Assembly (NCBI GenBank): GCA_017502085.1
Contig: JAFVVQ010000029.1
Coordinates: forward strand, 1 to 64,000
Direction of reading: 5' to 3'
Origin: Clostridia bacterium
Lineage (GTDB): Bacteria; Bacillota; Clostridia; Oscillospirales; Acutalibacteraceae
Length of the DNA stretch: 64,000 nucleotides
A model generated the notes under the pieces. The model ran no database searches. It was not told the origin of the DNA and saw only the letters and a program-made list of their open reading frames with translations. Positions 3,919-21,227 of this stretch are shown piece by piece. The position numbers were made by a program, and so were the translations under genes. How positions within the stretch are numbered: position 1 is the first letter of the stretch; every line of letters starts with the position of its first letter.

Positions 3919-5037
3919 TTGAAAGAAGTATTCGAAGGACAGAACATCACTTCTCTTAGCGTTTCAAAGGCAGTCGAATCCCTTGCAAAGGCTTATTGTG
4001 AGCTTATAAGGAAGGGCTTGAAAATGAATTATCTTCCCGCACTGATGCTTTGGGGTCCTCCCGGTGTCGGTAAGTCTGATTTTGCCCGTCAGCTTGCGGC
4101 AAGAATAGAAGAAGAAACAGGCAAAACCGTCAACCTTGTTGACGTGCGCCTTCTTCTCTTCAATCCCATTGACCTCAGGGGTATCCCTACTGCCAACGAG
4201 GACAAGACAGCGGCTGTATGGCTCAAGCCCAAGATCTTTGATATGGATGAAAGTGATGCTGTCATCAACATTCTTTTCCTCGATGAACTTTCATCCTGTT
4301 CGCCTTCCGTTCAGGCAGCGGCATATCAGATTACTCTCGACAGAATTATCGGTGAACACCGTCTGCCTGATAATTGCATCGTTATTGCCGCAGGTAACAG
4401 AATAACCGATAAGTGCGTTACTTACAAGATGGCAAAGGCACTTGCCAACCGTCTTTGCCACGTTGAAATCAAAGCAAACTTTACTTCATGGGTTACATGG
4501 GCAAAGGCAAACGGAATCCACTATAAGGTTATCGATTTTCTTACCGCCCGCCGTGATTTCTTTATGGCATTCGATCCGCAGAAGGATGAACTCGCTTTCC
4601 CTACACCCCGTACGTGGGAGATGGTCAGCAATATTCTCAATGTTTATGACGGGGATGAGAATGCGGCACATCCGATGGTTTCGGGTTGTATTGGTGAGGC
4701 GGTTGCTTCAGAATTCCGTATGTTTTGTGCGGTTTACAGAACGTTGCCCTCTGTTGAAGAGATTTTTGACGGCGGCAACCCTGCTCTTCCTAAAGAAACC
4801 GACGCTCTTTTTGCGCTTATTTCATCTATGACGGCACACGCCCGCGAGAATAAGGATGATATGAGAAAAATCGGCAATGCAATTAAGTATTCAGAGAAAC
4901 TTGCACCCGATTTCAGCGTTGCGTTTATGAAGGAACTTATCAACCTTGAGCCTGAATATCGCAAGAAGCTCATTATGGTCCCTGAATATACAAGGTGGAT
5001 GGACAGGAGAGGAAGGATGCTCAATGGCATTATCTGA
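3919..5037 (+). CDS. MoxR-type AAA+ ATPase
   Basis: The 372-residue protein is a cytoplasmic AAA+ ATPase of the MoxR group, which usually acts as a chaperone-like remodeller paired with a VWA-domain partner. Walker A is GPPGVGKS (residues about 45-52) and Walker B is ILFLDELSS (about 118-126), followed by the QAAAYQITLDRIIGEHRLP region typical of MoxR proteins and a sensor-1 AAGNR. It starts with TTG immediately after the helicase stop; GGAGG 8 bases upstream lies inside the helicase gene. Its own end overlaps the next gene by 14 bases. The MoxR plus metallopeptidase-like/VWA pair is a known recurrent unit; attachment to a helicase suggests that the pair regulates or loads the helicase, which is inference. 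Confidence 0.88.
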   Translation: MKEVFEGQNITSLSVSKAVESLAKAYCELIRKGLKMNYLPALMLWGPPGVGKSDFARQLAARIEEETGKTVNLVDVRLLLFNPIDLRGIPTANEDKTAAVWLKPKIFDMDESDAVINILFLDELSSCSPSVQAAAYQITLDRIIGEHRLPDNCIVIAAGNRITDKCVTYKMAKALANRLCHVEIKANFTSWVTWAKANGIHYKVIDFLTARRDFFMAFDPQKDELAFPTPRTWEMVSNILNVYDGDENAAHPMVSGCIGEAVASEFRMFCAVYRTLPSVEEIFDGGNPALPKETDALFALISSMTAHARENKDDMRKIGNAIKYSEKLAPDFSVAFMKELINLEPEYRKKLIMVPEYTRWMDRRGRMLNGII

Positions 5038-6229
5038 TGCTGAACTCAAGGTTTTTTATCAGAAGCTTCTGACAGCCAGAATGAGACTTGTTATGACTCA
5101 TCCGTTTTATGGCGCGTTGCTGATGCACGTCAGACTTGCCATTGATGAAAAGTGCGAAAGCGCATTCACCGATAATGAATGCATCTGTTTCGGCGCGGAG
5201 TTTCTCTCAAATCTCTCCTCTCAGGAGGTTGAGTTTGTTATGCTCCATGAGATATTGCATATCGTTCTTCGACATTGTAAGAGAGGTTTAGGGTATAATC
5301 AGTTCATCTTTAACGTCGCCTGCGATATCGTTGTCAATTCGACGATTCTTGAAGCATTTGACGATGACGTTTCAAAGATTACTCTTTCGAAATACGGTGA
5401 GTCAATGCATCTGACTCCTGACGGCAAGGAGGGCAGGGGATACACCGCCGACGAAGTTTATGCGATGCTGATGAAGAATCAGAACAGAACAAAGGCTATG
5501 GCACTTTCCGCCTTCTGCGATGATCATTCGCAGTGGAAGGACGAAGAAGGCTTGGCGGATGAACAGGCGGACTGGATTCAGAGGATAATCAACGCCGCGG
5601 AAACCGCATCGAAGATGGCGGGGAAAAATGCGGGTAATCTGCCGAGATTTGCCGAGGAAATTCTCAACAGAAACAGAAACCGTGCACTCGATTGGAGAAC
5701 ACTGCTGCGCACGTTTGTCGAGGAGGATGTTTGTGATTATTCCTTTAATCCGCCCGACAGACGGTTTGCAGATTCGGATTTTTTCCTTCCCGATTATAAC
5801 GGATGTATAAGCAGTGAAAAGGTGAAAAAGGTTCTCTTTATGATTGATACCTCGGGATCAATAGGCACAAAGACAATCCATGCGGCGTATGATGAGATCG
5901 AATCAGCGCTTGAAATGTTTGAAGGCGGAGTCGAGGGCTGGCTCGGATTCTTTGATTGGGAGGTAAAACCGCCCGTACCGTTTGAAAATTCCGATGAACT
6001 CAAGCAGATACGTGCTGTCGGCGGCGGTGGAACAAGTTTCCGCAATCTTTTCAGATATATAAGGAAAGAAATGAAAGAAGATCCGCCTGAAAGTATCGTG
6101 ATTTTCACTGACGGATACGACAAATTTCCCGAGGAAGAGGTTGCGGGCGGCATCCCTGTTTTGTGGATTATCTGCGGCACAAATGTTGTCCCGCCCTGGG
6201 GCGCCGTCGCCAGAATACCGAGGGAATAA
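5024..6229 (+). CDS. Metallopeptidase-like/VWA protein (DUF2201 type), MoxR partner
   Basis: This 401-residue protein has an N-terminal zinc-peptidase-like domain with HEILH (near residue 74) and a C-terminal VWA domain whose MIDAS motif is DTSGS (near 275) and whose later metal-site segment is FTDGY (near 362). This arrangement is that of the DUF2201 family, commonly encoded next to MoxR ATPases. The ATG at 5024 is chosen because GGAAGG lies 7 bases upstream; an in-frame start at 4946 would overlap the MoxR gene by 92 bases without a good site. Whether the HExxH site is active is unknown. It probably forms a complex with the preceding MoxR protein. A bidirectional terminator follows. Confidence 0.85.
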   Translation: MALSDAELKVFYQKLLTARMRLVMTHPFYGALLMHVRLAIDEKCESAFTDNECICFGAEFLSNLSSQEVEFVMLHEILHIVLRHCKRGLGYNQFIFNVACDIVVNSTILEAFDDDVSKITLSKYGESMHLTPDGKEGRGYTADEVYAMLMKNQNRTKAMALSAFCDDHSQWKDEEGLADEQADWIQRIINAAETASKMAGKNAGNLPRFAEEILNRNRNRALDWRTLLRTFVEEDVCDYSFNPPDRRFADSDFFLPDYNGCISSEKVKKVLFMIDTSGSIGTKTIHAAYDEIESALEMFEGGVEGWLGFFDWEVKPPVPFENSDELKQIRAVGGGGTSFRNLFRYIRKEMKEDPPESIVIFTDGYDKFPEEEVAGGIPVLWIICGTNVVPPWGAVARIPRE

Positions 6230-6356: not shown

Positions 6357-6686
6357 TTAAGTGACAGAAAAAGAAATGATTAAAAAAAATATAAATACAA
6401 CAAGTGTAATGCCCAAAACCTTATAGAACGTTTTGATATTCTTAAGTTTCTTTGTTGTTGTGGTATGCCTTCCGCCGCACCTAGGACAATTGCAAACAAT
6501 TTTTCCACTTTCAGAATCTTTAAATACTCCGATTCTTTTGGAAAAGAAAGGTGTCTTACAGTATTTACAAAAACTTATTGCCGGAAAACCAAGTTTGTAC
6601 TGGTGAGGACGAAAAAAACCACTTTTATTAAGATTATTAATTTCATTAGGCAATTCGCTAAGCTTTATTTTTTTATCTTTCTTCAA
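6357..6686 (-). CDS. Small zinc-ribbon membrane protein
   Basis: This 109-residue protein has an N-terminal cytoplasmic zinc ribbon (FCKYC about residue 39, then CNCPRCGGRH about 65-75) and one C-terminal membrane helix (VLGITLVVFIFFLIISFSV). No family is recognised. It is the last gene of the minus-strand operon and overlaps the stop of the preceding gene by four bases, which indicates tight coupling. A tail-anchored zinc ribbon could dock cytoplasmic operon products to the membrane; this is inference. The GTPase three positions upstream also carries zinc ribbons. Confidence 0.75.
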   Translation of the reverse strand: MKKDKKIKLSELPNEINNLNKSGFFRPHQYKLGFPAISFCKYCKTPFFSKRIGVFKDSESGKIVCNCPRCGGRHTTTTKKLKNIKTFYKVLGITLVVFIFFLIISFSVT

Positions 6687-7591
6687 GGGATGTGCACTTC
6701 CTTTAACAGAGATTTAATTTCTTCTTTTTCGCGGGGTGTCATAGAGATTTCAAAAATATCTGAACGGAAATTCTTATATGCCATTAATAGACATAATGTA
6801 TTATAATAGATGCGCATATTATTTTTGTTCAACGGTAATCTGATCAATTCTTCGATCGAATAGTATACGTTTTCAAAATTGTATTTGGAAAACAGTTTTA
6901 ATAAACATAGCTGTGCGTAACTAGGCTCATTTAAGCATATATGAATTGTCGGAGTGGAATCTGAAAAGTCAATAAGAATATAATTTTCATCGCATTGGGC
7001 TTCGCTTAAAAAATTAACTTTATCGTTTGACAAAATACATCTACAAATAGCAACCGACTTTTTAACCGGCGGGATCTTACCTATTATCTCTATGCAAGAA
7101 TTTAATTTTAAAATATCTGAAGATATTTCTGAGATAATTCTTCTAATAAGATTTATATCGCTTTCTCTTTCAGCAACACAGTAAAGAACGGTGTCATCCG
7201 AAAACAAAGACAGTAATAATGACTCATGTAACTTGTTGACAAAAAAGTCATCGTATCCACAAAATTCAGTCATAGTATCTAAAAATTCAGAAAAATCGAT
7301 ATTGTCGTATTTTGATTCAATTGTCACTTTGCTTTCGAGGAAGACGCGGCCATCATTTCTTGGGTATGATTCAATAAGAACAATGTTTTCATCAGCATTA
7401 AAGAAAGATTTTGTGGTGACCGGTGCGGATGCATATCCGGGAACAGAAGCATATTCTGTTAACATTGAGATATATGATTTAACCCACATTTGCGCAGAAT
7501 TCTCGGGAATAAGATTGTCTATATTACCTCTGAAATCATATCCTCCGCTGCTATGTGACAAAAAGAAAGTCTTATTTGGAGTATCATTCAT
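6683..7591 (-). CDS. Unknown protein, likely GTPase partner
   Basis: This 302-residue soluble protein is not recognised. It begins MNDTPNKTFFLSHSSGGYDFRG and contains mixed alpha/beta segments with an acidic C-terminal helix, no membrane helix and no clear catalytic motif. The ATG at 7591 is preferred to a TTG-type start at 7669 because GAGG sits 7 bases upstream and because the longer form would overlap the GTPase gene by 65 bases. Its place directly after the P-loop GTPase suggests an adaptor or regulator of that enzyme. In predicted GTPase-centred conflict systems such adaptors are common, but no homology to them can be shown by eye. Confidence 0.7.
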   Translation of the reverse strand: MNDTPNKTFFLSHSSGGYDFRGNIDNLIPENSAQMWVKSYISMLTEYASVPGYASAPVTTKSFFNADENIVLIESYPRNDGRVFLESKVTIESKYDNIDFSEFLDTMTEFCGYDDFFVNKLHESLLLSLFSDDTVLYCVAERESDINLIRRIISEISSDILKLNSCIEIIGKIPPVKKSVAICRCILSNDKVNFLSEAQCDENYILIDFSDSTPTIHICLNEPSYAQLCLLKLFSKYNFENVYYSIEELIRLPLNKNNMRIYYNTLCLLMAYKNFRSDIFEISMTPREKEEIKSLLKEVHIP

Positions 7592-7604
7592 ATTGTTACC
7601 TCGT

Positions 7605-8861
7605 TCATTTTTTAGCTTTTGGATACACTCCGATTTCAGAGAGAAGCCATAAAAATGGAGTTTCAGCACCTACGCTGTTAAAATGATCATTAATGATGAG
7701 TCGAGTAGCAAAAACTCTGGTGTTTTTTTCTCCAAAGGAATCGTTAATGCTTCGCATATATTTTTGTAATGATTCTTGTTCCTTTGTTAAATTTGTTGCA
7801 TTCTCACCTAGAAGATGTGATTTTATGGTGTCTGACAAACTATCTATAACTGACATATCGACAGGGCCTTTTGTTTCTTTCGTGAACTCACCTATTTTTA
7901 TTTCGTCCTGAATTAGATCAAGTTTATTAAAGATAATAGCGGTTTTTTTCTTGTTGATAATATTTGTCTGGCTGAAAGCTTGAAGAATATCATCAACCCT
8001 GACCATCTGGGGCAAAATCCCATCAGACAGGCCTTGCATCGTGTTTTGCTCATCTAGTTCAGGTGCTTCTTTATCAAACAGCTTTTTTATTAGTTCTCTA
8101 TGTTCATATTCTTCTGCTGCGTTAACAATGAATATAATACCGTCTGCGTTTATGAGAAATTGCGAAAGAGACTTAGAAATCTTATCTGCGCTAGTATAAA
8201 ATTCGCCTGGAACATCAAAGAAAACAAGGTGGCATTTGTCGTTGCTTTCTGTCTGTCCATTTAAATATTTCAACTCATAAAAATAAGGTCCCATTATAGA
8301 TTTTGTGGCAATTTTTGCCTTATCGATTTTGCTTTTGTCTGGGGTAGAATAAGTGGTTGATATACCATAGGATAATCGCTCGTTGCAATACAAATCAGTA
8401 ACGTTATCAAGAGGGGAACTCTTATCTTTGTTAAGCGAGTACCAGGTGGTGTTGGGAAGATTTCTCATCCTGTCATTTAAAGCTGCGAGATATGTAGTCT
8501 TGCCACTATTGGGAACGCCGATAACCGCAATATAACGTGTTTTCTCTTTGCCGAAATTTATGAGAAGGTTGTTGTGGCAATAGGGACAAAGTCTTTGCTG
8601 TAAAGGTAAACTGGTTGCAGGATTTGGATCTTCAACTCCAGTGATATAATTATTCTCCGTTTCAATCTGATTTGTTTTCAAATCAGCAGGGTCAACATAA
8701 CCATAATCGTATTTAGCGTAAGCAGAGTTTCCTTTATCGATGTGATATGAACGAAGATATTCATCTACAGAACGCATACCGGATGCACAACGGAATACGG
8801 CATTATTGTACTTGAACGGAATAAAACAATAAGGGCATTTTACCAAAGGGATTTTTTTCAT
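7605..8861 (-). CDS. Zinc-ribbon P-loop GTPase (TRAFAC-like)
   Basis: A 418-residue cytoplasmic GTPase. Residues 1-110 carry two cysteine pairs (CPYC near 9 and CPYC near 92) expected to form a zinc ribbon. The GTPase domain has Walker A GVPNSGKTTY (near 113), switch II DVPGE (near 215) and the guanine-specificity motif NKLD (near 310). The layout resembles bacterial TRAFAC 'double-GTPase' proteins, although a second GTPase domain is not evident. The ATG at 8861 is chosen over an upstream TTG (8879), with a GGAG site 10 bases ahead. It sits between a membrane-spanning sensor-like gene and an unknown partner, so a switch relaying a membrane signal is plausible but inferred. Confidence 0.85.
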   Translation of the reverse strand: MKKIPLVKCPYCFIPFKYNNAVFRCASGMRSVDEYLRSYHIDKGNSAYAKYDYGYVDPADLKTNQIETENNYITGVEDPNPATSLPLQQRLCPYCHNNLLINFGKEKTRYIAVIGVPNSGKTTYLAALNDRMRNLPNTTWYSLNKDKSSPLDNVTDLYCNERLSYGISTTYSTPDKSKIDKAKIATKSIMGPYFYELKYLNGQTESNDKCHLVFFDVPGEFYTSADKISKSLSQFLINADGIIFIVNAAEEYEHRELIKKLFDKEAPELDEQNTMQGLSDGILPQMVRVDDILQAFSQTNIINKKKTAIIFNKLDLIQDEIKIGEFTKETKGPVDMSVIDSLSDTIKSHLLGENATNLTKEQESLQKYMRSINDSFGEKNTRVFATRLIINDHFNSVGAETPFLWLLSEIGVYPKAKK

Positions 8862-8868
8862 AAAACAA

Positions 8869-10134
8869 TCACTCCACAATTATTATACCTTTTTTTAGGA
8901 GAACGAATTCATGATTTCTGAGCTCCAAAATGCCAGGTTTAATAGATATAATTTTTTGACCTAAAGGTTTAACTTCCTGACCATTGTTATTTTTTATGAT
9001 AAAACATTCGGAAAGTGCATGAATATCTGAATATGTCTTGAATTTGTTTGAGTTAAATTTGACAGGATTCAACATCAAATGCTTATTCTTGAAAACAATA
9101 TAGTCTGATTTGATTTGGTTGCCGGTTGCAGAAAAAACAGGAGTGTCATCAAACCCTAAATTAAGATTATAACTATTCTCTAATGTCAGAAATGAGCTGC
9201 TCAGCAATAAAGATGAGCATGCATCTGGGGTGGTGTAAAAGTCAGCTGCAACAATTTTTTCTTTGGGATTATTTGATGCCGCAGCTTCTGTGCCGAGTGA
9301 AGATGTGTCCTTTTTGATTAATTGGGCAGTATATGTTTGTTTTATTGGAGTAGGATTTGCACATGGAATTCTAGAAAGATCGATGCTTGACGAAGCAGAA
9401 GTGTTCTCAGGCTGTATACTATCAGATTTATTACTATTTTCTTTTTGTTTGTTGGTTTTTTTCTTGTTAATTGTAACTATACCTTTTTTGATCAAAACCC
9501 AAAAAACAATTATCGCTGAAATGATAACAACTAACATTACTATACACAAAATAACTATAGGCAGAGCTTTTTCCAAGTTGGCTTCCTCCTTTACCTCTGT
9601 TTTTGTAAATTGGTTGATTTTTATGGGTGTTATACCGCTTATTAGATTGGCATTTTTAATTATTGTTATATCATTAACCTTAAGTGACGTTTGGTCAAAC
9701 GTCACCTTAAAGTAATTATTTTCGTCATTAATTGATACAGGTATTCTGTCCTTCTTCAATTGTTTGAAGGTCTTTTTTGTTGCATTGTTTTGATGATTAT
9801 CAACGAAAAATAACTCTGCGGAGTCTGAAGATGATTTATCGATCCAAATGGAAATTTGCTGGGTTTGATTATCGGTTTTAACGGTGAAGGAAATGCATTT
9901 TTCATAAAAACGAGGTTTGGAATTTACTGACTCGGCACCGAAAACTTTAATGACATAAGTTCCGTACGAGGATTCCCCCGAGAACGCACCGGCGTTCTCA
10001 GGGGAGGTGACGGAGTTGCTGTATGTATATTCGGATTCATTTGAAGGAGAATCTGCAGCGGCGAAAACACCAATATTAAACGTCGCAACAATAAGCAACG
10101 CACATATTATCGCAGAAATCTTCTTGAATAACAT
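8869..10134 (-). CDS. Single-pass membrane protein with outside and inside domains
   Basis: This 421-residue protein starts with a signal peptide (hydrophobic IICALLIVATFNIGVFA, cleavage near residue 26). It continues with an exported beta-rich domain of about 160 residues, a membrane helix near 190-214 (IVILCIVMLVVIISAIIVFWVLI), a Lys-rich stop-transfer stretch, a Ser/Thr/Asn-rich linker and a C-terminal cytoplasmic domain of about 130 residues. The type I layout suits a sensor that passes information from the cell surface to cytoplasmic partners. The C-terminal domain has short beta strands and might be FHA-like, but no diagnostic residues are clear. Its end overlaps a possible longer GTPase start, so it is cotranscribed with the GTPase. 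Confidence 0.75.
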   Translation of the reverse strand: MLFKKISAIICALLIVATFNIGVFAAADSPSNESEYTYSNSVTSPENAGAFSGESSYGTYVIKVFGAESVNSKPRFYEKCISFTVKTDNQTQQISIWIDKSSSDSAELFFVDNHQNNATKKTFKQLKKDRIPVSINDENNYFKVTFDQTSLKVNDITIIKNANLISGITPIKINQFTKTEVKEEANLEKALPIVILCIVMLVVIISAIIVFWVLIKKGIVTINKKKTNKQKENSNKSDSIQPENTSASSSIDLSRIPCANPTPIKQTYTAQLIKKDTSSLGTEAAASNNPKEKIVAADFYTTPDACSSLLLSSSFLTLENSYNLNLGFDDTPVFSATGNQIKSDYIVFKNKHLMLNPVKFNSNKFKTYSDIHALSECFIIKNNNGQEVKPLGQKIISIKPGILELRNHEFVLLKKGIIIVE

Positions 10135-10151
10135 ACAGCAACCTCCATTGG

Positions 10152-13100
10152 TTAGATAAGTTTTTCGATCATTTTTTCGAGCATCATAAGTGAGAAGAAC
10201 TCTTTATAAGTGCCGGGATCATAGTTGACGTCTTCCATATCTGCAACTAATGTTGAGAATTCGTCTAAAAATACGTTGCAAGCTTTAGGTGACTCTTCAA
10301 CGTTTAAAGCTTTGAGATTCATTCCCAATGCAGTAAGGAATTTAATTAAAACTGTGTATGATTTTTTGAGTGTTTCTCTGTCCGGAATCGAGAAATTAAT
10401 GGCAGGAATTGTGGTATCTACTTCTTCACCTTCTGGATCTGTTGATTCCGGTTCAATTGACGTTATATCAACTGATACTGAATCATCAGCCATAATCTTT
10501 TCCAGATCAGCATATACCGGGTCTACAGCATGGTCTGGAGCATCGTCACCGAACAATGTCATTTCATTCTTACTGAGCAAGGTTAAACCGATTACGACCT
10601 CTTCTTTGTCATCAGAAGTGGATGAAGTGATGTGGAAGTTAAGATTTTTATCCAGCTTCAAAATAGTTTTAAAGAGAACTTCTATGTTTCGGTTAATATT
10701 TGATGTCTTAGCAGCAAGAGAAATACCTTTTGCACCGCATCCGGCCATACAGATTCTGAAGGTATAGGGGGAAAGCTCAAATTCTTTTTTATCAAGCTTG
10801 TTCTTCATATAGGAAGCAATGAGGTAGAAAAGACCGCAATATTTTGCATTTACAACAAGACAGAGTTTTTTGAATTCATCGTCAGCAAGTCTGTCATAAT
10901 TGATACCTTTGTTTTCAAGCAAGAAATCGATAATTGCAATCTTACGGTAGGGATGATTACTCCTGATGTAATTTTTAGCAGCTTCAATTTCTGAGTTGTT
11001 TATTGCTTCATCAGAAATGTCCCAGAGTTTCTTGAATGAGGTCAAATCTTTGACAGTCTGGATAATTGATTTTTCAACAAGATAGTTACCTGCATATCCA
11101 AATGAATGTTCGGCTTTTAATTCAGGGATGTTATTGCCCTTCCAGAACGAGAAGTCGGTTGTTCCGCCGCCGATATCAATGATTGCATAGCCGTCATTGG
11201 GAGTGGGTCTGTGCTGAACCGTGGGATGCTTTTCGAAATATTTGCCGGCAGCTTTCGCCTCGGTCTGACCGAGGATTTCAATATTTTCTATGCCGCTGAT
11301 TTCAGCAAGAGTTTTCTTGTATTCAGCCGAAGCATCCAAGGCTATGTTTCCAAATTCTTCACCGGGATAAGAAATTCTGATTTCAACTCTGTTTGCACCT
11401 TCTGTTTTAGCCTCAAGGACACCGTATGTCAAAGCATTGAGTATAAAGTTTTTGGCGGCTTTTTCTCTTTCTCTGTCAATGAAATCGTTGTTGTCTCTCA
11501 CTTTCGGCCATTTAAGGTTGGTCAAGATCCTGGATTCATTTTCAAACAAATTGGTTGAATCAGAGATAAAATCCTTATCTATTTCGATAAGTCTGCCTGT
11601 AACATTGGAGATTGTAAGATGAGAGCAATCTCTGTTTTCGAGTTTGGCATCGAAATTCTGACCATAGGTAAAAATTTTGCCGAGAAGCTCTGAAGAATCA
11701 GAGAACAGATAATATTTCTGAATAAATTTACGCTTTTCTTTGCTGAGAGGGCAGTAAATGTCATGTACATATTTTCCGGGCGAATAAACAGATCTTTGAA
11801 GGTATTGCTGGTTTACGTTTGCAATGGGATTGTCAGCAATATAAATGTTTGTGCTTGTTGTACCGAAGTCCATTGCAACAGTCTTTGGTGCATTGCCTAT
11901 ACCGGAAAATGTAGGTGCGTGATCTCTCTTGACTGTCCACGTACCGAGTGTATGCTTGCTGCCCATAGAGTCGGTGTAGAAGAATTCAAGTGCATAAGGT
12001 GTTGATGTGCTTGAAAGCAGTGTAAATTCTTGTGCTTGCTTGTTTCTTTCTGCTCTATCTACAGGATTTACGTATTTTGAGAGGGAGTCATAAGCCTTGA
12101 TTTCAGCTTCGGATGATTTGGCGACAAGAGCGAACTCGATTCTTTGGTCGGTGACGAGTGTGCGACGTCTGAGATGTTTAAATCTGCTATCAAAGAAGAA
12201 TCTGAAATCATCATACACCATTGTACCCTGATTAAGATTAGCATCTTCGCTTTCATCATTGGCAACAATTGCAACATAGTGCTGTTTCCATGAGTCATTT
12301 TCAAAGTTAACAAAAGGCCACATGGAAATGTAGGGCATACATTCTGTATATGTAATCTCCGCTTCGTTGAATGTATGTGATTTTGTTACAATGTCACCGC
12401 CGGGAAGATTTTTCACTTTTATTTCGCAAAGGTAGCTCGATATTTTATTTGTTTCATCCTTGTTAACACTTATATTCAAGGTGTCGATTTCAGCATTTCC
12501 GTCTCTTATTTCACAAACAAGATCATTGTGAATGGGGGGGACAATGTAATACTCTTTGCCGTTTTCTGCAACTTTTATCAAAGCGTCGCCGATCTGATTG
12601 CCGTTAAATCCACTGGGCGGAATGATGGCGAGCAAAGCGTCGGAGAAAAACCTGACCCTTCTATGGTCTATTTTTTTTGTGATAGAAGGCAATAATTCGT
12701 TGACAGCGGAGTAAGACGTGTTTGTAAGATTAACTGCAATGCCAGGGTTGAAAGGCTTATTATTTTTAAGATCCTTTTCGAAACGTCCTAAAATATCTCT
12801 TAAATCGGGAGCAGCAACATTGGCAACTACGCTTTGTATCCACGTAATAAGTCCGATAGCGGTTCTTGTCAGATTGGCGGTTCCGTCATCTATGATTCTG
12901 CAAGTGGTGAGAGGCTTCCATGTAGCCTTCGGGTCTTTATTGGGATCGTCAAATACAGCAGTGCTGCTGTCATACCATTCAATGCCGTCAAAAATATCAA
13001 GAGGATATGATTTGAAGGGGCATATAAGCATAGATGGCATATACATTGCAAACGGAATTTCTCTGTTGTTTTTCTTTACACAGAAAACATTCAGGTGTTC

Positions 13101-13580
13101 GCAATTCGGCTGGGGAGGCTGTGCGTTTGCATCTAACCTATAACCGGTTATGTGGCTGTTGGCAATAAGCTCGTTATAAAAAGCCTGTCCCAGTGATGAG
13201 GAATTTTGCTGATTATAAATCGGAATCTGTTTAACGGTAATATCGAGAGCCAGAATATCCTGCATAGCAAGAATGGCAAGCATACCGCACCATTCATTGA
13301 AAGCGGCCTGTGATGCCTCTTTCATTTTAACTTCTGCGGGTGTAGGATTAGCGGGATTGGCTGCGACGCGTGTTATTGCAAAAAGTCTGCTTTTAAAGTG
13401 TTTTACGTGAGCGATGGGAGAGGGGATGGCGTAGTCTTCAGACAAGGGAGCATTGGCTGCGATAACAATATCTTCAGCTATATTGCCGAGAGAGCCCCCA
13501 ATAGGTGACCAGTTGTTGTTGGCTGAGTTGCCATATCCCTTAGTGTTTTTGATAGGTAAAAGAACTTTGTTAGTAGGCAT
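10152..13580 (-). CDS. Actin/Hsp70-fold ATPase with large N-terminal extension (SrfB-like)
   Basis: A 1142-residue cytoplasmic protein. The second half is an ASKHA-fold ATPase: phosphate-1 motif MDFGTTSTN (near 571), phosphate-2 IIDIGGGTTDFS (near 800) and adenosine motif AGCGAKG (near 945). The first 560 residues and the acidic segment 1020-1070 match nothing I recognise. Size and motif spacing recall the SrfB 'virulence factor' group of Hsp70-like proteins, but the assignment is by motif only. It lies 14 bases after the tubulin-like gene, so one transcript encodes both cytoskeletal NTPase folds. AAGGTG precedes the ATG. Polymer formation is possible for both proteins but not shown by sequence. 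Confidence 0.8.
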   Translation of the reverse strand: MPTNKVLLPIKNTKGYGNSANNNWSPIGGSLGNIAEDIVIAANAPLSEDYAIPSPIAHVKHFKSRLFAITRVAANPANPTPAEVKMKEASQAAFNEWCGMLAILAMQDILALDITVKQIPIYNQQNSSSLGQAFYNELIANSHITGYRLDANAQPPQPNCEHLNVFCVKKNNREIPFAMYMPSMLICPFKSYPLDIFDGIEWYDSSTAVFDDPNKDPKATWKPLTTCRIIDDGTANLTRTAIGLITWIQSVVANVAAPDLRDILGRFEKDLKNNKPFNPGIAVNLTNTSYSAVNELLPSITKKIDHRRVRFFSDALLAIIPPSGFNGNQIGDALIKVAENGKEYYIVPPIHNDLVCEIRDGNAEIDTLNISVNKDETNKISSYLCEIKVKNLPGGDIVTKSHTFNEAEITYTECMPYISMWPFVNFENDSWKQHYVAIVANDESEDANLNQGTMVYDDFRFFFDSRFKHLRRRTLVTDQRIEFALVAKSSEAEIKAYDSLSKYVNPVDRAERNKQAQEFTLLSSTSTPYALEFFYTDSMGSKHTLGTWTVKRDHAPTFSGIGNAPKTVAMDFGTTSTNIYIADNPIANVNQQYLQRSVYSPGKYVHDIYCPLSKEKRKFIQKYYLFSDSSELLGKIFTYGQNFDAKLENRDCSHLTISNVTGRLIEIDKDFISDSTNLFENESRILTNLKWPKVRDNNDFIDREREKAAKNFILNALTYGVLEAKTEGANRVEIRISYPGEEFGNIALDASAEYKKTLAEISGIENIEILGQTEAKAAGKYFEKHPTVQHRPTPNDGYAIIDIGGGTTDFSFWKGNNIPELKAEHSFGYAGNYLVEKSIIQTVKDLTSFKKLWDISDEAINNSEIEAAKNYIRSNHPYRKIAIIDFLLENKGINYDRLADDEFKKLCLVVNAKYCGLFYLIASYMKNKLDKKEFELSPYTFRICMAGCGAKGISLAAKTSNINRNIEVLFKTILKLDKNLNFHITSSTSDDKEEVVIGLTLLSKNEMTLFGDDAPDHAVDPVYADLEKIMADDSVSVDITSIEPESTDPEGEEVDTTIPAINFSIPDRETLKKSYTVLIKFLTALGMNLKALNVEESPKACNVFLDEFSTLVADMEDVNYDPGTYKEFFSLMMLEKMIEKLI

Positions 13581-13594
13581 AATATTTCACCTTC

Positions 13595-15334
13595 TTATTT
13601 GTTTGAATTGTCTTTTGTTATCTCAGTATAGATAAAGCCGAATGTTTCGTGAACAAAGTCACCGACTCTGTTACGGATATCGATTTGATTAGCCTCATAA
13701 GTTTTCTTTCTTTTGTCAAAAATATTTTTGAGATGCTCTTCAACGTCATTAGCCTTAAGACCCTTGGTATCGGACATATAATAATTAGAAACCTGATCAC
13801 GTTTTTTAGTGTTGACGAATGTTTTGTTTACTGAGTTTGCAGCGTTGGTATAATTACCGTTTCCTATATCTATGATAACGTTGTTAAGTTTATCATAGTA
13901 TTCTTTGTTGAATATGCTGTAGTTGCTTTCGTATGAAGCTTTTGATTTATCGTTGCTGTGGTCCTTTCCGTTTGTGGAAATGTCCATCATAAGATTTACA
14001 AAACTGGAGCAATAGTTATATACTCTGTCGAGGATTTCTGTGACTTGTGTGGCGTAAGCCTTTTCGTAATTTTTTATTTCATTTTTTGTGAGCAGTCTTT
14101 CCTTGATAAATACGCCCTCTTTGGTTTTTTCATCAAGATAAACACGGCAGATGAAATAAGCTGAGAATACCGACATTGCAGCCAGTCTGCGATGAAGGTC
14201 ATCGGGTAGGTTTTCGTATTTTACAACAGGAATATCGGTAGGGTTATCGCCTGTTGCATAACGGTATTCGTATATTCCGTTTTGGTATCTAGCAGGAAGT
14301 GAATACTTTCTGGTTGCTGTGTCGAACTGAAGCTCAACGTTCATAAACTCGGTCATTGCATATGCTGCTGCAAGATCAACAAAATCAAAGTGATTGTGCT
14401 GATTTTCACCGCCTTCACTGTAATTTCCGATACAGTGGAGAGGTTCCTGTCCGCATACGTAGAGTGTGTCAAAACTGCCGTCCGAATTCGTATCAGTCTT
14501 CATAAGGTTCTCGTCGGCATCGTATTGCTCAAGAGCAATTTTTGTTTTGGAATAAAAGCTCTGGGAATCGATCATACCGCCGCCGCCTTTTTTATCGCCG
14601 AAAGTAAAATACGGGAGAAGAAGAGCGCCGGAGATGAAAACACGGTCTTTGTTTCCGTCACCTACGGATGTTCTGATATGACGGGCGAGGTTCGAGAAAA
14701 TGGATGCACCCGTTCCGCCAAAAATCGATCCAACAATGAATACCTTGACAGGATTGTTGTTATTGGTTGCAAGCGCGTTTTTAACAGGGGAGGCAATATC
14801 GCTGCTCTGAATGACACCGCTATTATCCCATTTACCTTCTTTGATCATATACTTGAAAATCAAGGCGCCGATGGAGGGGTGACCGTAGAAACCCTGGTCG
14901 GTATTTTTGCTTTGTTCTTTTTCTGAATAGAAAGCATCAAAAAGAATACCGTCATTTGATGCAAAAGCTGTGTTTGCACTGGTTAAAGAGGTTTCGAGAG
15001 GCGCTGCGGCATAGTTTGCGTTGCTGAGGGATTTCATAGTGCTTGAAAAATCCCAAGTGTCAATATGGAGCTTGGTCTTGCAGAAATGCTTTTCATTATC
15101 GCCTGATGTAATTAGTGCAGTGGCGGAATGTTTGTTTTCATCAGAAAGGCAGTTGACGTTGTTGAGCAGCTGCCTTGCGCTGCTCGTGCCACCGTTTTTA
15201 TCGTCCTTATCAACGATAATGAACGTAATACCTTCATTTTCTTCAATGAGATTAGCGGCACAAAGATGACCTGCAACTTCGGCGATGCGAGTTCCGACAC
15301 CGCCGATGCAGTAACAAAAATTCTTTGTAGACAT
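13595..15334 (-). CDS. Tubulin-like GTPase-fold protein
   Basis: This 579-residue protein has the hallmarks of the bacterial tubulin-like (Tubulin_2, PF13809) family. An N-terminal nucleotide-binding loop GGVGTR (residues 11-16) follows the first beta strand, and the tubulin/FtsZ signature region appears as IFGGTGASIF (near 200-212). The C-terminal 250 residues are charged and helix-rich. It is not FtsZ: the length, the divergent T4 loop and the absence of a cell-division cluster argue against it. AGGAGG lies upstream of the ATG. Co-transcription with the actin/Hsp70-like ATPase is its most informative context. Confidence 0.82.
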   Translation of the reverse strand: MSTKNFCYCIGGVGTRIAEVAGHLCAANLIEENEGITFIIVDKDDKNGGTSSARQLLNNVNCLSDENKHSATALITSGDNEKHFCKTKLHIDTWDFSSTMKSLSNANYAAAPLETSLTSANTAFASNDGILFDAFYSEKEQSKNTDQGFYGHPSIGALIFKYMIKEGKWDNSGVIQSSDIASPVKNALATNNNNPVKVFIVGSIFGGTGASIFSNLARHIRTSVGDGNKDRVFISGALLLPYFTFGDKKGGGGMIDSQSFYSKTKIALEQYDADENLMKTDTNSDGSFDTLYVCGQEPLHCIGNYSEGGENQHNHFDFVDLAAAYAMTEFMNVELQFDTATRKYSLPARYQNGIYEYRYATGDNPTDIPVVKYENLPDDLHRRLAAMSVFSAYFICRVYLDEKTKEGVFIKERLLTKNEIKNYEKAYATQVTEILDRVYNYCSSFVNLMMDISTNGKDHSNDKSKASYESNYSIFNKEYYDKLNNVIIDIGNGNYTNAANSVNKTFVNTKKRDQVSNYYMSDTKGLKANDVEEHLKNIFDKRKKTYEANQIDIRNRVGDFVHETFGFIYTEITKDNSNK

Positions 15335-15354
15335 TGTTGAGTCCTCCTATATAA

Positions 15355-15738
15355 TTAAGGTTTGCAAGTGAGATACGAAACGAGAGAACCGATAATAGCG
15401 ATTACGGATGTTGCAATTGCAAATGCGATAGCTTTCGGGAAAAGGAAAATACCAACAACGGGAATTACAAGTGTAGCGATAGCGCCGCCAAGGAAATAGG
15501 GAAGCATTGAGGGTGCGGGCTTGCCAACCATAGCTTTGTTTTTTTTGCCTCTTGTGAACCAGAAAACAAAGGCAACAACAACGGGGAAAATGGCCGAAAT
15601 CATAGCAGTGCTGGCGATATCTCTGACACTGCTTTTCATACTGACGGAATCCTGGAAAAGAACCCAGAAGATGAAACCTGCGATGCCGGAAATGATGTTG
15701 ATGAATGTACCGAGTAAGAGTTTGGTTTTCTGTGACAT
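15355..15738 (-). CDS. Small four-helix membrane protein
   Basis: A 127-residue integral membrane protein with four predicted helices (around residues 8-26, 44-62, 79-98 and 101-122) and a short basic loop TRGKKNK after helix two. No family is recognised. It lies between the VWA-like lipoprotein and the tubulin-like gene with 15-40 base gaps, so it belongs to the same operon and may be the membrane anchor or channel component of the system. Confidence 0.75.
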   Translation of the reverse strand: MSQKTKLLLGTFINIISGIAGFIFWVLFQDSVSMKSSVRDIASTAMISAIFPVVVAFVFWFTRGKKNKAMVGKPAPSMLPYFLGGAIATLVIPVVGIFLFPKAIAFAIATSVIAIIGSLVSYLTCKP

Positions 15739-15778
15739 GTTTTAATCCTCCATATAGTTAAATGTATGTTAAGTGAGC

Positions 15779-17578
15779 TTAATATTCAAGCTTCACTGCA
15801 ACAACAACGTCAGAAACGTTTTTGGTCATCTGTTTTTCAAATTCTGCTCTTTCTGATGACGAAGATCTTTCACCGATAAGGAATTTGTAGAAAGAAAGAA
15901 GACCGGCTGTTTTTTGATAGATGTTTGCGTTGTCAGGGGAAGGAACCTCTGAATCCATAAGGTTGAATTCATTGATCCAATCAGGAATGTTTGTATCAAG
16001 AGTCTTGGTGGCATCAATGTTGAATGCAACAGTAAGGTATGTAAAATCATTATCTTCGACGAGTTTGTCAAGATTGTTGAATTCAAGTCTTACTCTCAAT
16101 GCACCATTCTCATTGTCAACCGTATAGAACTTAAGCTTTTCTCTGGGATATTCGTTATCTTCTGACCTGAGTTCTTCGTTGGTAGCAAAATCGGTTGCTC
16201 TTTCGAGTGAATCTCCGTTATTCAGTAATTCGCAAACAGGCAACTCCATATATTTGTCGTTACTGTCGAAGAGATCGTGATTGCTGATTTCTACCCACTG
16301 CCAGAGCGTTTCGGATTCCTCAATGCCGTGTTCATCGGTGGAAGAAACTTCAACCTGTTTCCAGCCGTACACCTTGATCATATCTCTTGTTAAAGTGTAT
16401 TTGACGTTTTCAGCCGCAGTACCGTCTGAAAGCGAGGAAAGGGGAAGTGCAAAGTTGATTACAGCTTTGCCTTTGGTTGAATTGTCAAGGGAACCTAAAT
16501 CGTCGGGATTGAACTGGTAGTAAAGACCGTAATACTTTTCAGAAACCGGGCCGTAAATATCTTCATAATGGACCTTTTCAACATTGAAGTTAAGGTTTGA
16601 GTTAGAATATGTAAAGCCGGGATATTCACCATAATCGTGATCGCTGTTTTCTTCATCGATATAGATGTTGTCAAAAACGAGGGATTCGGCGTTAGTTATC
16701 GGTGAATACTGAAGTCCTCTCTTGGAAAGAACCTTTGCGGAGAAGAAATCTCGGTTTTCAGCAAGGCCGGAATCTTTGAACGTATTGGTAAGAGAATCGC
16801 AAAGTGCAACAACCTCAATTGTAGGACCGACAATAACACAGTAGAATGGTCTTTCACCAACAAAGTTGTCATTGTTTATCATTTCAACGTGACCTCTGTC
16901 TGTTATACCGCTTGCAGGAACAGATGCATATCCCATGAAATTAGACTTGACACAGAAAAGGGCGACGGAATGATCTTCTCTGTCAAGAACTATATCGCTG
17001 ATTCTTTCTGCAAGAAGCTTGTTATTAAGATCCTGTTCGGCGAGATCTGTTACGAATACGTTAAGTTCGTCAAAATTAACGGGAGATTCTTTTGAATTGA
17101 ACAACATCTGAAGGGGACCGGTTTCACCCTTATCTCTGTTGAAACTGCCCTTGTGACTTGTGTTATCAAACGTATAGAAATCTTTGCTGATGAATTTCGA
17201 GAACTCAAACGGATCGGTATCGGTCCATTTAAGATACTCTGTCTCGCTGCCGTCGACAGGTTCTCCGTCGAGCGAATACAGAGCGAAACTGTTATATCCT
17301 TTTATGACGTCAGCCAACGCATTGCAAACTATAGTGAAATTGCTTTTAACAAGAGGTGTGTTAGGGGTTACACTTTCGCAAACATAACCGTACATCGACA
17401 TTGTATTATCGAAGTAAAGGTTCGCTTTGGTTGAACCGGCTTTTTCAGATAATGCATTAATCGCTGAAATCAAATCCTTTTCACTCTGGTGAGGGGTGAT
17501 GCCAGGAGGAGGCGGACAACCCGTGAACAAGACGCTGATTGCGACAACAAATGCAAGTACCGTAATGAATTTTTTCAT
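15779..17578 (-). CDS. Lipoprotein with VWA-like domain
   Basis: This 599-residue protein begins with a lipoprotein signal (VLFTGC, Cys21) followed by a proline-rich spacer, so it should be anchored outside the membrane. The chain then shows a VWA-like Rossmann pattern: YFDNTMS (Asp57-x-Thr-x-Ser61), a DxTxS variant of the MIDAS DxSxS, and later VFVTDLAEQ (near 175-182). The C-terminal 250 residues are beta-rich and unassigned. It is the first gene of the eight-gene operon, with AAAGGAG upstream of its ATG and a promoter about 55-80 bases further up. An exported metal-dependent binding protein is the likely role; the ligand is unknown. Confidence 0.78.
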   Translation of the reverse strand: MKKFITVLAFVVAISVLFTGCPPPPGITPHQSEKDLISAINALSEKAGSTKANLYFDNTMSMYGYVCESVTPNTPLVKSNFTIVCNALADVIKGYNSFALYSLDGEPVDGSETEYLKWTDTDPFEFSKFISKDFYTFDNTSHKGSFNRDKGETGPLQMLFNSKESPVNFDELNVFVTDLAEQDLNNKLLAERISDIVLDREDHSVALFCVKSNFMGYASVPASGITDRGHVEMINNDNFVGERPFYCVIVGPTIEVVALCDSLTNTFKDSGLAENRDFFSAKVLSKRGLQYSPITNAESLVFDNIYIDEENSDHDYGEYPGFTYSNSNLNFNVEKVHYEDIYGPVSEKYYGLYYQFNPDDLGSLDNSTKGKAVINFALPLSSLSDGTAAENVKYTLTRDMIKVYGWKQVEVSSTDEHGIEESETLWQWVEISNHDLFDSNDKYMELPVCELLNNGDSLERATDFATNEELRSEDNEYPREKLKFYTVDNENGALRVRLEFNNLDKLVEDNDFTYLTVAFNIDATKTLDTNIPDWINEFNLMDSEVPSPDNANIYQKTAGLLSFYKFLIGERSSSSERAEFEKQMTKNVSDVVVAVKLEY

Positions 17579-17843: not shown

Positions 17844-18932
17844 ATGCCACTGAAAATAATCCGTCAGGATATCACAAAAATGAAGGTTGATGCGATTGTC
17901 AACACCACCAACGAAGAAATGGTGGGTTACAGCGGAGTCGACCTTGCTGTGCACACTGCCGCAGGTCCGATGCTCGATGCCGAATGCGAAAGAATCAGAC
18001 CGCTCGGACTCGGCACTGCGAAGATTACGGGTGCATACAATCTTGATGCAAAATACGTTATCCATACTTCAGGTCCCGTCTGGCACGGGGGACTTGTGGG
18101 AGAGAGCATTATTCTCAAATCGTGCTATGTTGAATCTCTCAAACTTGCAGTTGCAAACGGTTGCGAATCCGTTGCGTTTCCGCTTATCTCCGCAGGTACT
18201 TACGGTTATCCGAAAGATCAGGTGCTGAAATTCGCAATTCAGGTTATCACAGAATTTCTTTTTGAACACGAGCTTAACGTTTATTTATGTGTTTTTGACC
18301 GCACCTCGTATGAGTTCAGCAAAAAGCTTTTTGATGAAATCAGCGAGATAATCGGTGACGGTTACGTTGCGGCAAGCAGATTGCCGTTCGGCAGAGAAAT
18401 TGATGAGTCTGAAGCGACGTTTTGCGCAACAGATGCGTCTGTATGCGAATCCGTTGACTGCGCCGCAGAGCCGATTGACGAAGGTGTAAAAGAGTGTTTG
18501 CCCAAACCGATAAATGCGCTGTATTCAAAGAAGAAAAAGGCGGTAAACTCCACGGCGGCGAATTCTCTTGAAGAATATATGAAATCAATGGATAAATCCT
18601 TTGCGTACAAGCTTTTTGACCTGATTGATTCAAAGGGAATGACCGACGTTGAATGCTATAAAAAAGCCAATGTTGATAAGAAAACGTTCTCCAAAATCAA
18701 GTGCAATCCCGATACTTACAAGCCGTCCAAACAGACTGCCGTTGCATTTGCAATAGCACTTGAACTGACCCTTGACGAAACACAGGATTTGCTCGCATCC
18801 GCAGGTCTGACACTCTCACGCAGTTTCACTTTTGATAAGATAATCAGATTTTTCCTCCAAAAGGGTGTCTACGATATTTTTGAGATAAACGAAGCACTGT
18901 TTGAGTTCGACCAGGTGCTGTTGGGTTGCTGA
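17844..18932 (+). CDS. Macrodomain protein fused to an HTH-like domain
   Basis: A 362-residue cytoplasmic protein. Residues 1-165 form a macrodomain: GDI-like QDITKMKVDAIVN, NxxN-type binding loop (VNTTNEEM), GGVD-like YSGVDLAVH and the PLISAGTYGYP loop, all part of the ADP-ribose pocket. Such domains bind or hydrolyse ADP-ribose groups or O-acetyl-ADP-ribose. After a variable linker (about 170-245), residues 245-362 form an all-helical HTH-like domain (LIDSKGMTDVECYKKAN, then DETQDLLASAGL) that is commonly fused to macrodomains in Bacillota. AGAGGTGAG precedes the ATG. It begins a plus-strand cluster that also contains an ADP-ribosylglycohydrolase, so reversal of ADP-ribosylation is a coherent theme. 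Confidence 0.88.
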   Translation: MPLKIIRQDITKMKVDAIVNTTNEEMVGYSGVDLAVHTAAGPMLDAECERIRPLGLGTAKITGAYNLDAKYVIHTSGPVWHGGLVGESIILKSCYVESLKLAVANGCESVAFPLISAGTYGYPKDQVLKFAIQVITEFLFEHELNVYLCVFDRTSYEFSKKLFDEISEIIGDGYVAASRLPFGREIDESEATFCATDASVCESVDCAAEPIDEGVKECLPKPINALYSKKKKAVNSTAANSLEEYMKSMDKSFAYKLFDLIDSKGMTDVECYKKANVDKKTFSKIKCNPDTYKPSKQTAVAFAIALELTLDETQDLLASAGLTLSRSFTFDKIIRFFLQKGVYDIFEINEALFEFDQVLLGC

Positions 18933-18945
18933 TACGGAGAATGAT

Positions 18946-19671
18946 ATGCTGAAAAAACTTTTTGAAAAACACGAAACTCTGATGTGCATACTGATGATTA
19001 TTCTGTATGTAATAATAAATTCATATTGCGTACAGAATTTCGGCGTGACAGATTACAGAAGTGCTGTTATAAATACCGTGTTTTCGGTTGCTCTGATAAT
19101 TCTGACAATCGCTCTTAAAAGGGCACCGTATTACGGATTGACAAAAGCAGAAAATCCGAAGAAATTTTTATATTATCTGCCCCTTGTTATGATAATATCC
19201 GTAAATCTCTGGTCGGGAATCAACATCAATAATACACCGAAAGAGATTGTGTTTCATATTCTGACAATGCTCAACGTAGGTTTTATTGAAGAAATAATTT
19301 TTCGCGGTTATCTGTTCAGAATGATGGAAAAGGATAATGTGAAAGTTGCAACAGCGGTCAGTTCAATAACTTTCGGAATAGGTCATATCGTGAATCTTTT
19401 CAACGGTGCGGAGCTTGTTCCGACCCTGCTTCAGATATGCTATGCAATGGCGGTCGGCTATTTGTTCGTTGTCATATTCCGCAAGAGCAAATCAATTGTT
19501 CCGTGTATAATTGCACATTCCGTGAACAACGCATTGTCAATATTCAATGAAGATAACACCGTGTCTTTGTATTTTGCGCCTGTTTTTCTTATTGTTGTTC
19601 CGCTTGTGTATGCTGTATATATCAACAAAACAGTAAAAGAAGTAAAAGTCTCCCGTCAGGCGACCAATTAA
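18946..19671 (+). CDS. CPBP family intramembrane metalloprotease
   Basis: A 241-residue membrane protein with about seven helices and the CPBP (CAAX protease and bacteriocin-processing) motifs EEIIFRGYLF (near 111), FGIGHI (near 144) and HSVNN (near 193). These carry the catalytic glutamates and histidines of a zinc- or glutamate-type intramembrane protease. Bacterial members serve in peptide maturation or bacteriocin self-immunity. The ATG at 18946 is preferred, with GGAG 6 bases upstream; an in-frame TTG at 18901 would overlap the macrodomain gene. It follows that gene by 13 bases and is ended by a terminator. Confidence 0.88.
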   Translation: MLKKLFEKHETLMCILMIILYVIINSYCVQNFGVTDYRSAVINTVFSVALIILTIALKRAPYYGLTKAENPKKFLYYLPLVMIISVNLWSGININNTPKEIVFHILTMLNVGFIEEIIFRGYLFRMMEKDNVKVATAVSSITFGIGHIVNLFNGAELVPTLLQICYAMAVGYLFVVIFRKSKSIVPCIIAHSVNNALSIFNEDNTVSLYFAPVFLIVVPLVYAVYINKTVKEVKVSRQATN

Positions 19672-19688
19672 ATAAACAAACTCGCTAT

Positions 19689-19735
19689 AATGTGGTTGTA
19701 AGGTTGAGAAACCAAGCAACCACATTTTTATTTTT
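19689..19735 (+). terminator. Terminator after the CPBP protease gene
   Basis: AATGTGGTTG pairs perfectly with CAACCACATT around an 18-base loop and is followed by TTTATTTTT. The ribosome site of the next gene begins directly after the T tract, so this element may also set the expression of the glycohydrolase by readthrough. Confidence 0.75.
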
Positions 19736-19748
19736 GGAGGAGAAAACG

Positions 19749-20540: not shown

Positions 20541-20552
20541 GGAGACAGAACA

Positions 20553-21227
20553 ATGAAAAACAACATCACAGAACTCGTATTTATCCTTGACAGAAGCGGC
20601 TCAATGGCAGGTCTTGAGAGCGACACAATCGGCGGATTCAACGCTATGATTGAAAAACAGAAAAAGCAGGACGGCGAATGCTACGTTTCAACGGTGCTTT
20701 TCGATAACGTATCCGAAGTGCTTCACGACAGAGTGAAGCTCAGCGAAATCAAGCCTATGACAGACAAAGATTACACCGTCAGAGGATGCACCGCACTCAT
20801 CGATGCAATCGGCGGAGCAATTCACCACATCGGAAACGTTCACAAGTATGCCAGACCCGAAGACGTACCTGAAAACACAATGTTTATCATTACAACAGAC
20901 GGTATGGAGAATGCAAGTCACAGATATTCAAGTGACAGGGTCAAGGCGATGATTGAAAGGCAGAAAGAAAAATACGGCTGGGAATTCCTTTTCATCGGCG
21001 CAAATATCGATGCGGTTGAAACCGCCGCAAGATACGGTATCGGCGCAGACAGAGCCGTAAACTACAACGCTGACCCTATGGGCACAAGCATCGTTTATGA
21101 GTCTGTTTCAAGAGCCGTCTGCAATGTCAGGGCAAAGGCTTGTGTTGACGAAAACTGGTGCAACGATATCAATGCCGATTACTTGCGCAGAGGCAAAAGA
21201 AAGCCTGACGGCGATGAAGCTGACTGA
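20553..21227 (+). CDS. VWA-domain protein (TerY-like)
   Basis: A 224-residue soluble protein that is essentially one VWA domain: MIDAS LDRSGSM (Asp13 to Ser17), a conserved GGFNAMIEKQK helix, the middle Thr loop (RGCTALIDAIGG) and TTDGMENAS (near 113). TerY-like VWA proteins bind partners through a metal ion and often occur with ADP-ribosylglycohydrolases, phosphatases or kinases. Here it follows the glycohydrolase by 12 bases with an AAGGAGA site. It is the third distinct VWA-type gene within 16 kb, after those at 5024 and 15779. Confidence 0.9.
   Translation: MKNNITELVFILDRSGSMAGLESDTIGGFNAMIEKQKKQDGECYVSTVLFDNVSEVLHDRVKLSEIKPMTDKDYTVRGCTALIDAIGGAIHHIGNVHKYARPEDVPENTMFIITTDGMENASHRYSSDRVKAMIERQKEKYGWEFLFIGANIDAVETAARYGIGADRAVNYNADPMGTSIVYESVSRAVCNVRAKACVDENWCNDINADYLRRGKRKPDGDEAD

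Follow-up and report, generated by a model that had tools for sequence, protein, structure and literature searches.

An eight-gene operon in a Clostridia draft genome

The DNA analysed here is a stretch of 64,000 nucleotides (nt), referred to below as the window, from contig JAFVVQ010000029.1 (positions 1 to 64,000) of a gut bacterium of the Clostridia; it is part of a draft genome of 2.63 Mb that is 84.5% complete. Its minus strand carries eight open reading frames (ORFs) at positions 6357–17578, arranged with short gaps or overlaps at the coordinates given in an original prediction made from the DNA letters alone. The first four genes encode an exported VWA-like lipoprotein, a small multi-transmembrane (TM) protein, a tubulin-like protein and an actin-like ATPase. 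This four-gene core was found again in distant phyla, and the arrangement is therefore more than chance. The intergenic gaps measure 40 nt (genes 1–2), 20 nt (2–3), 14 nt (3–4) and 17 nt (4–5), and the following ORFs overlap by 11 nt (genes 5–6), 65 nt (6–7) and 4 nt (7–8). Genes 1 to 5 start with ATG; genes 6, 7 and 8 are listed with TTG, GTG and TTG, respectively, and because these are not ATG codons the exact starts of the three genes are uncertain. The G+C content of genes 5–8 is 31–37%, compared to 40–44% in genes 1–4 and 38–47% in 14 other window genes, which is compatible with separate acquisition of a module without proving it. Besides genes 3 and 6, none of the eight proteins scored over any Pfam or NCBIfam cut-off, and PADLOC returned weak matches only (E 0.0068 and 0.0081).

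Proteins of the four-gene core

Gene 1 (15779–17578, 599 amino acids (aa)) begins with a signal peptide and, by reading of the sequence, a lipobox-like LFTGC. Alignment with 51 relatives places a metal ion-dependent adhesion site (MIDAS)-like DNTMS and a VTDL in the window protein; the MIDAS pattern occurs in 43 of the 52 rows and a loose TD-type pattern in all 52. These features fit the earlier description as a VWA-like lipoprotein. Pfam gave no VWA match, and a match to integrin alpha-1 was weak (E 0.74). Gene 2 (15355–15738, 127 aa) had been described as a 4-TM protein; the window protein has three hydrophobic segments, and the description fits its family, in which 41 of 51 members have four. 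Gene 2 also gave one NCBIfam ZorA match at E 0.029, far under the cut-off of that model.

Gene 3 (13595–15334, 579 aa) matches the Pfam family Tubulin_2 (PF13809) with an E value of 4.6e-10 and 39.7 bits against a cut-off of 27, the best stretch covering 60 residues. Its structure model supports a tubulin GTPase-domain fold followed by a helical C-terminal half in which no long coiled coil was seen, and the glycine-rich T4 signature appears as GGTGA at residue 206. The pattern GGTG[AS] is present in 53 of 53 rows of the family alignment, whose loci had been chosen by that stretch. An hhalign comparison with three canonical Tubulin_2 proteins gave a probability of 95.3%, and one with seven FtsZ proteins gave 0.6%, arguing against a plain FtsZ; the single Pfam Tubulin (FtsZ) gene of the window's genome lies on another contig. 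Gene 3 is thus modelled as a member of the tubulin/FtsZ superfamily, with filament formation only putative. PF13809 finds the core tubulin in at most two of six core-bearing genomes, the clear case being locus L097 (E 1.3e-6).

Gene 4 (10152–13580, 1142 aa) contains the three ASKHA motifs DFGTT at residue 571 (phosphate-1), DIGGGTTD at 802 (phosphate-2) and GCGAK at 947 (adenosine). In the 51 rows of its family, simple patterns for these motifs were recovered in 50, 44 and 34 rows, respectively. The structure model shows an actin/MreB/FtsA fold at about residues 563–1017, preceded by about 550 N-terminal residues to which no fold was assigned. Two annotated cyanobacterial plasmids, of Gloeothece and Picosynechococcus, encode after the tubulin gene proteins of 1118 and 1100 aa that align end to end with gene 4 at about 20% identity, the pairwise significance (8e-9 for Gloeothece) coming mostly from the ASKHA half. 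An Hsp70 chaperone is not favoured: Pfam gave no HSP70 match, Hsp70 chains matched weakly (E 0.0035 or weaker), and no Hsp70 was among the 50 fold matches listed. The models of genes 3 and 4 thus back the tubulin and ASKHA folds that had been predicted, and of the former label "actin/Hsp70-like" the actin part is retained, as the fold leans to the MreB/FtsA/actin side. Several cyanobacteria (L019, L021, L035 and L037) carry a second, shorter actin-like copy (730–994 aa) downstream of the first.

Conservation and co-divergence of the core

Relatives of the core were collected by scanning genome_contigs, at one genome per species for 84,980 species, with a tubulin alignment and one peptide pattern. 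The scan yielded 382 tubulin relatives, of which the best 80, ranked by likeness to a cyanobacterial query, were kept, and the core profiles were trained and iterated on these same 80 loci. The actin-like gene was found by profile in 76 of the 80, a figure that describes this tubulin family and not all bacterial tubulins, because the profiles were iterated and the loci ranked by a cyanobacterial tubulin. In 68 loci, no more than 400 nt separate its start from the tubulin gene. Among the four loci without it, the contig of L066 ends 110 nt past the tubulin gene, while L054, L057 and L077 leave room of 1.7 kb, 2.5 kb and almost 10 kb. The VWA gene is present in 64 of the 80 loci; it shares the strand in 34 of them, diverges in the other 30, which are cyanobacterial, and lies within 2 kb in 62. 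The TM gene of the gene 2 type was detected by profile in 62; of the 13 loci L080–L092, which that profile missed, 12 hold another gene of 133–152 aa in the same slot. The 80 loci are not independent, since L073 is the L010 contig and L075/L076 and some cyanobacterial pairs are near-duplicates.

The loci come from records titled Cyanobacteria, Bacteroidota genera, KSB1, Nitrospirae, Aminicenantes, Poribacteria, Pyrinomonadaceae, Ignavibacteriaceae, Alphaproteobacteria and Clostridiales, and many of them are metagenome-assembled or single-cell genomes. Three loci (L069, L075 and L076) lie in contigs titled Pelagibacteraceae or Alphaproteobacteria, which is unexpected for streamlined marine genomes and may reflect contamination. 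The 4-kb contig of L048, titled Chloroflexaceae, encodes a tubulin 59% identical to that of Gloeothece and is probably a mis-binned cyanobacterial contig.

Trees were compared in a non-redundant set of 51 actin-like, 50 tubulin, 46 VWA and 45 TM proteins, with L029 left out. Tree distances of the tubulin and actin-like proteins correlate at r = 0.973 (n = 50), where the best of 1000 shuffles reached 0.356; the tubulin correlates with the VWA protein at 0.909 (n = 45) and with the TM protein at 0.879 (n = 44). These correlations demonstrate co-inheritance, not contact. The co-occurrence across genomes on which the original prediction had staked the operon holds for genes 1–4. It does not extend to the whole: phmmer found no relative of genes 6–8 in the other core loci examined, ruling out a conserved eight-gene unit for these three genes on those loci.

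Genes downstream of the core

Gene 5 (8869–10134, 421 aa) has two hydrophobic segments, an N-terminal signal and one central TM segment, followed by a predicted cytoplasmic C-terminal domain, and it shares position and layout with the fifth gene of relatives. Together with the exported, MIDAS-bearing VWA protein, the 4-TM protein and the soluble tubulin and ATPase, it gives the operon the outside, membrane and inside parts that had been proposed.

The last three genes form a window-specific module. The product of gene 6 (7605–8879, 424 aa) matches the Pfam family DO-GTPase2 (PF19993; E 2.8e-11, 44 bits against a cut-off of 27) and is also over the cut-offs of DO-GTPase1 (8.8e-11) and MMR_HSR1; it contains GVPNSGKT (G1), DVPG (G3), NKLD (G4) and two CPYC knuckles, consistent with a zinc-ribbon DO-GTPase. 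Gene 7 (6683–7669, 328 aa) encodes an orphan protein over no family cut-off in Pfam, NCBIfam or PADLOC, and a search of 290 other genomes of the class returned a single weak match with in-frame stops. Gene 8 (6357–6686, 109 aa) encodes a zinc-ribbon protein with CKYC, CPRC and one C-terminal TM segment. No nuclease or recognisable toxin was found in the module. DO-GTPase2 is present in three of 15 core-bearing genomes; it lies 4.7 Mb away from the core in one (G448), and phmmer found no relative of gene 6 in the core locus of the remaining two.

Genes 6–8 might be an unrelated GTPase cassette that landed by chance behind a tubulin–actin core, as their G+C content is below that of the core and no such module occurs in the other loci examined. 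This is very improbable given that the ORFs of genes 5–6, 6–7 and 7–8 overlap, that gene 5 is AT-rich as well, and that GTPases next to tubulin or VWA genes have been reported by both Makarova and Koonin (PMC2875224) and Kaur et al. (PMC7159879).

Across the 80 loci, the genes behind the core vary by lineage. Cyanobacterial cores are followed by coiled-coil membrane proteins. In 17 loci (L055, L058, L061, L073 and L080–L092) the core is followed by a ZorA/MotA-like gene and then a ZorB-like gene. Three ZorB-like proteins were tested with PADLOC and matched ZorB at E 4.9e-19, 2.7e-19 and 1.8e-10. For ZorA, the L010 protein matched at 2.9e-11 with the channel region covered, and was just below the Pfam MotA_ExbB cut-off; those of L055 (8.3e-8) and L061 (4.2e-6) matched partly or mainly in coiled coil. 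The ZorA-like protein of L086, of the Bacteroidota type, had no PADLOC match, so that the 13 Bacteroidota genes are labelled ZorA-like from inspection by eye and from their place next to a ZorB-like gene. None of the ZorA- or ZorB-like proteins was over an NCBIfam Zor cut-off. This motor-like module is absent from the window and was not found behind cyanobacterial loci. Six further loci (L067, L068, L070, L071, L072 and L079) have HSP70-cluster genes behind the core, of which only that of L071 was checked (Pfam 3.4e-76).

In the Clostridiales locus L010:12584–19372, the core, the ZorA-like and the ZorB-like genes are followed by an ORF of 1133 aa without a Pfam match at E 0.05. Two Gloeobacterales (L063:7731–9185 and L065:15981–20180) encode repeat proteins behind the core that by eye resemble beta-propeller sensors.

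Distribution and mobility

In the groups sampled, the core is an accessory trait with a patchy distribution. None of 59 near relatives, 36 same-genus genomes among them, matches the window tubulin, which was matched in three of 390 other genomes drawn from the class (G241, without the core, was left uncounted). In the class of a Calothrix genome, which was chosen for having the core and is itself counted, 21 of 242 genomes gave strong matches to the actin-like profile (E <1e-30, read off the rows; some are fragments), and among 397 other genomes of the phylum draw only G934 gave such a match. Weak matches to this profile in the class and phylum draws (E about 1e-3 to 1e-8) were left uncounted; they mostly cover the short phosphate-2 region of proteins of about 350–450 aa, which by size may be MreB or FtsA. 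The core is plasmid-borne in the cyanobacteria Gloeothece and Picosynechococcus, and a tblastn search of plasmids returned six records with distant tubulin relatives. Carriage of the window operon as phage or plasmid cargo is rejected: plasmids held no near DNA match and no match to gene 7, phages held no match to gene 4, and viral contigs held no relative of the single tubulin query.

Patchy distribution and plasmid location are also what an anti-phage or other biological-conflict system might display. Such a system would sense envelope damage or a phage component outside the cell, with the GTPase, motor or HSP70 proteins as effector arm, and Zorya offers a known precedent. ZorB-like and partly ZorA-like output genes in the relatives are consistent with this, as is the DO-GTPase of the window, since a regulated effector role has been proposed for DO-GTPase systems (PMC7159879). 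The conflict role is nevertheless possible rather than likely, as the PADLOC matches of the window proteins are weak, the window module includes neither a nuclease nor a recognisable toxin, and the sole mutant phenotype known to us is one of motility. Defence genes are likewise not clearly enriched in the cyanobacterial flanks, where 139 proteins matched 64 PADLOC families, compared to 49 for 140 controls. This is a weak test, in which 139 of 169 flank and 140 of 241 control proteins were sampled, control regions came from other genomes, loci L026, L032 and L048 were left out, and nearly all families among those listed (25 for each set) were matched by one protein.

A proposed envelope-anchored assembly

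The operon is tentatively interpreted, with a confidence just short of even, as an envelope-anchored, nucleotide-driven tubulin–actin assembly with an exchangeable output. The gene content, gene order, co-divergence and exchange of modules behind this interpretation were observed, and the folds were modelled. Outside the membrane, the VWA lipoprotein would bind an envelope or external ligand via its metal site, and the 4-TM protein and the single-TM protein of gene 5 would pass this state through the membrane to its inner face. There, the MreB/FtsA-like ATPase may co-assemble with the tubulin-like GTPase as a scaffold and switch that drives the downstream output. As predicted outputs, cyanobacteria would use coiled-coil membrane proteins, Bacteroidota and some other groups a motor-like pair that includes a ZorB-like subunit, further groups HSP70, and the window operon its zinc-ribbon DO-GTPase and two small partners. 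Such a machine would be accessory and patchily distributed, and not a general component of cell division. To our knowledge, an obligate partnership of tubulin and actin homologues within a single bacterial operon is rare outside cell division.

Several points weigh against this interpretation. The model of gene 3 has no strand beyond residue 302, and the usual FtsZ C-terminal domain was not seen. The likeness of gene 5 to the fifth genes of relatives is only suggestive (hhalign E 0.0016, probability 16%), and the GTPase module was seen once, its role in the machine resting on operon packing. Shared vertical descent contributes to the tree correlations, and the window apparently sits on the longest branch of the tree. 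The window's genome has two sub-threshold pilus-type ATPase matches only, and we know of no biochemistry for any member.

Neighbouring genes

The operon is flanked by two plus-strand groups. At 676–6229, a helicase (DEAD/Helicase_C), a MoxR-type AAA+ protein and a DUF2201 metallopeptidase/VWA protein form a tight group that converges on the operon's 3' end, so that a MoxR–VWA pair adjoins the DO-GTPase operon. At 17844–21227, diverging from its 5' end, are a Macro domain protein, a CAAX protease (Rce1-like), an ADP-ribosylglycohydrolase and a weakly VWA-like protein, which together look like an ADP-ribose cassette. Further away, at 29547–35291 on the minus strand, an ORF of 1914 aa and a neighbouring ORF of 352 aa are both without a Pfam match at E 0.001.

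Comparison with known systems

Among the open-access matches listed, no paper was found that treats the four core genes as a single system, and none of the open-access papers searched contains both "tubulin-like" and "ASKHA". One of the closest published arrangements is that of FtsZl1, a divergent FtsZ/tubulin found by a VWA gene, often with GTPase, kinase, OmpA-like and small membrane protein genes, for which a role in membrane remodelling was proposed (Makarova and Koonin 2010, PMC2875224). FtsZl1 is described there mostly as an FtsZ-like domain with a long coiled coil and a helical C-terminal domain, and the text consulted, supplements excepted, names no actin-like partner, which the core does have. 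Three of the six core-bearing genomes, all cyanobacterial, also hold a canonical Tubulin_2/FtsZl1 gene elsewhere (912–1106 aa, E 2.3e-63 to 3.3e-109), compared to 579 aa for gene 3 and about 480–560 aa for its relatives. The 20-kb surroundings of these three genes contain no match (E up to 0.01) to the four core profiles, and thus no actin-like gene. Both the architecture of gene 3 and the occurrence of FtsZl1 as a separate gene rule out that gene 3 is a canonical FtsZl1.

The original prediction had likened the operon to the conflict systems of the Aravind group. Kinship with the DO-GTPase/GAP1 systems, which include tubulin and HSP70 themes (Kaur et al. 2020, PMC7159879), is supported by the Pfam matches of gene 6, and in the DO-GTPase/GAP1-N2 systems, too, a DO-GTPase of the zinc-ribbon type is combined with tubulin and VWA proteins, with a predicted location close to the membrane. 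The likeness is incomplete: in the sections of that paper concerned, tubulin and HSP70/GrpE are separate themes, and gene 4 is not recognisably an Hsp70. Pfam, which includes GAP1 models, matched neither GAP1 nor FNIII in the eight window proteins at E values up to 1. The orphan gene 7 may encode a diverged GAP1, and FNIII repeats are described as fast-evolving. Zorya resembles the core's relatives in the ZorA/MotA-like and ZorB-like pair of the 17 loci, as far as ZorA and ZorB, the two components compared, are concerned. It differs in that the relatives place the VWA/4-TM/tubulin/actin core in front, and that PADLOC finds neither ZorA nor ZorB in the window.

The original prediction could name no experimentally described system with this gene set, a statement that needs amending in view of Synechocystis PCC 6803, where Sll0445 (Tubulin_2), Sll0446 (FtsA domain) and Sll0447 (DivIC domain) are encoded in the same order and interruption mutants exist (PMC9880817). 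These genes are probably the same core as in the window, as judged by their labels and order and by locus L064 of the same genus; a coiled-coil type gene lies downstream in place of the window's GTPase module. In L064, from Synechocystis salina, the core is present with two ORFs between the tubulin and actin-like genes. For Sll0445–Sll0447, putative interaction partners among pilus assembly and photosystem proteins are reported, phototaxis is impaired in all three mutants (PMC9880817), and LexA or CRP-type control of genes in the cluster has been described (PMC12313861, PMC4759255, PMC2633013).

These reports suggest a surface-motility, pilus or membrane-remodelling machine whose tubulin- and actin-like proteins would place or drive structures of the envelope, and the remodelling proposal for FtsZl1 (PMC2875224) is analogous. 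As an account of the window operon this is quite unlikely. No T2SSE/pilus ATPase was over cut-off in the window's draft genome, the motor-like module is missing from the window and from behind cyanobacterial cores, and the phototaxis phenotype could be an indirect one, given the effects on photosystems seen in these mutants (PMC9880817). Because the pilus-type ATPase matches are sub-threshold, the phenotype is not transferable as such to the window, and a pilus function in its host is not favoured. The motor-like and DO-GTPase modules point to conflict systems, and the Synechocystis mutants to motility.

With similar caution, the envelope-anchored assembly may represent an unnamed and ancient class of machine, built from an obligate, co-evolving pair of tubulin-GTPase and actin-ATPase, a VWA receptor and swappable outputs, and serving as an envelope-to-cytoplasm relay that lineages re-tool. 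Its core, spread over distant phyla, would join the FtsZl1/vWA, DO-GTPase/GAP1 and motor-based systems, and Synechocystis, in which mutants of the probable orthologues are already published, provides a tractable model.

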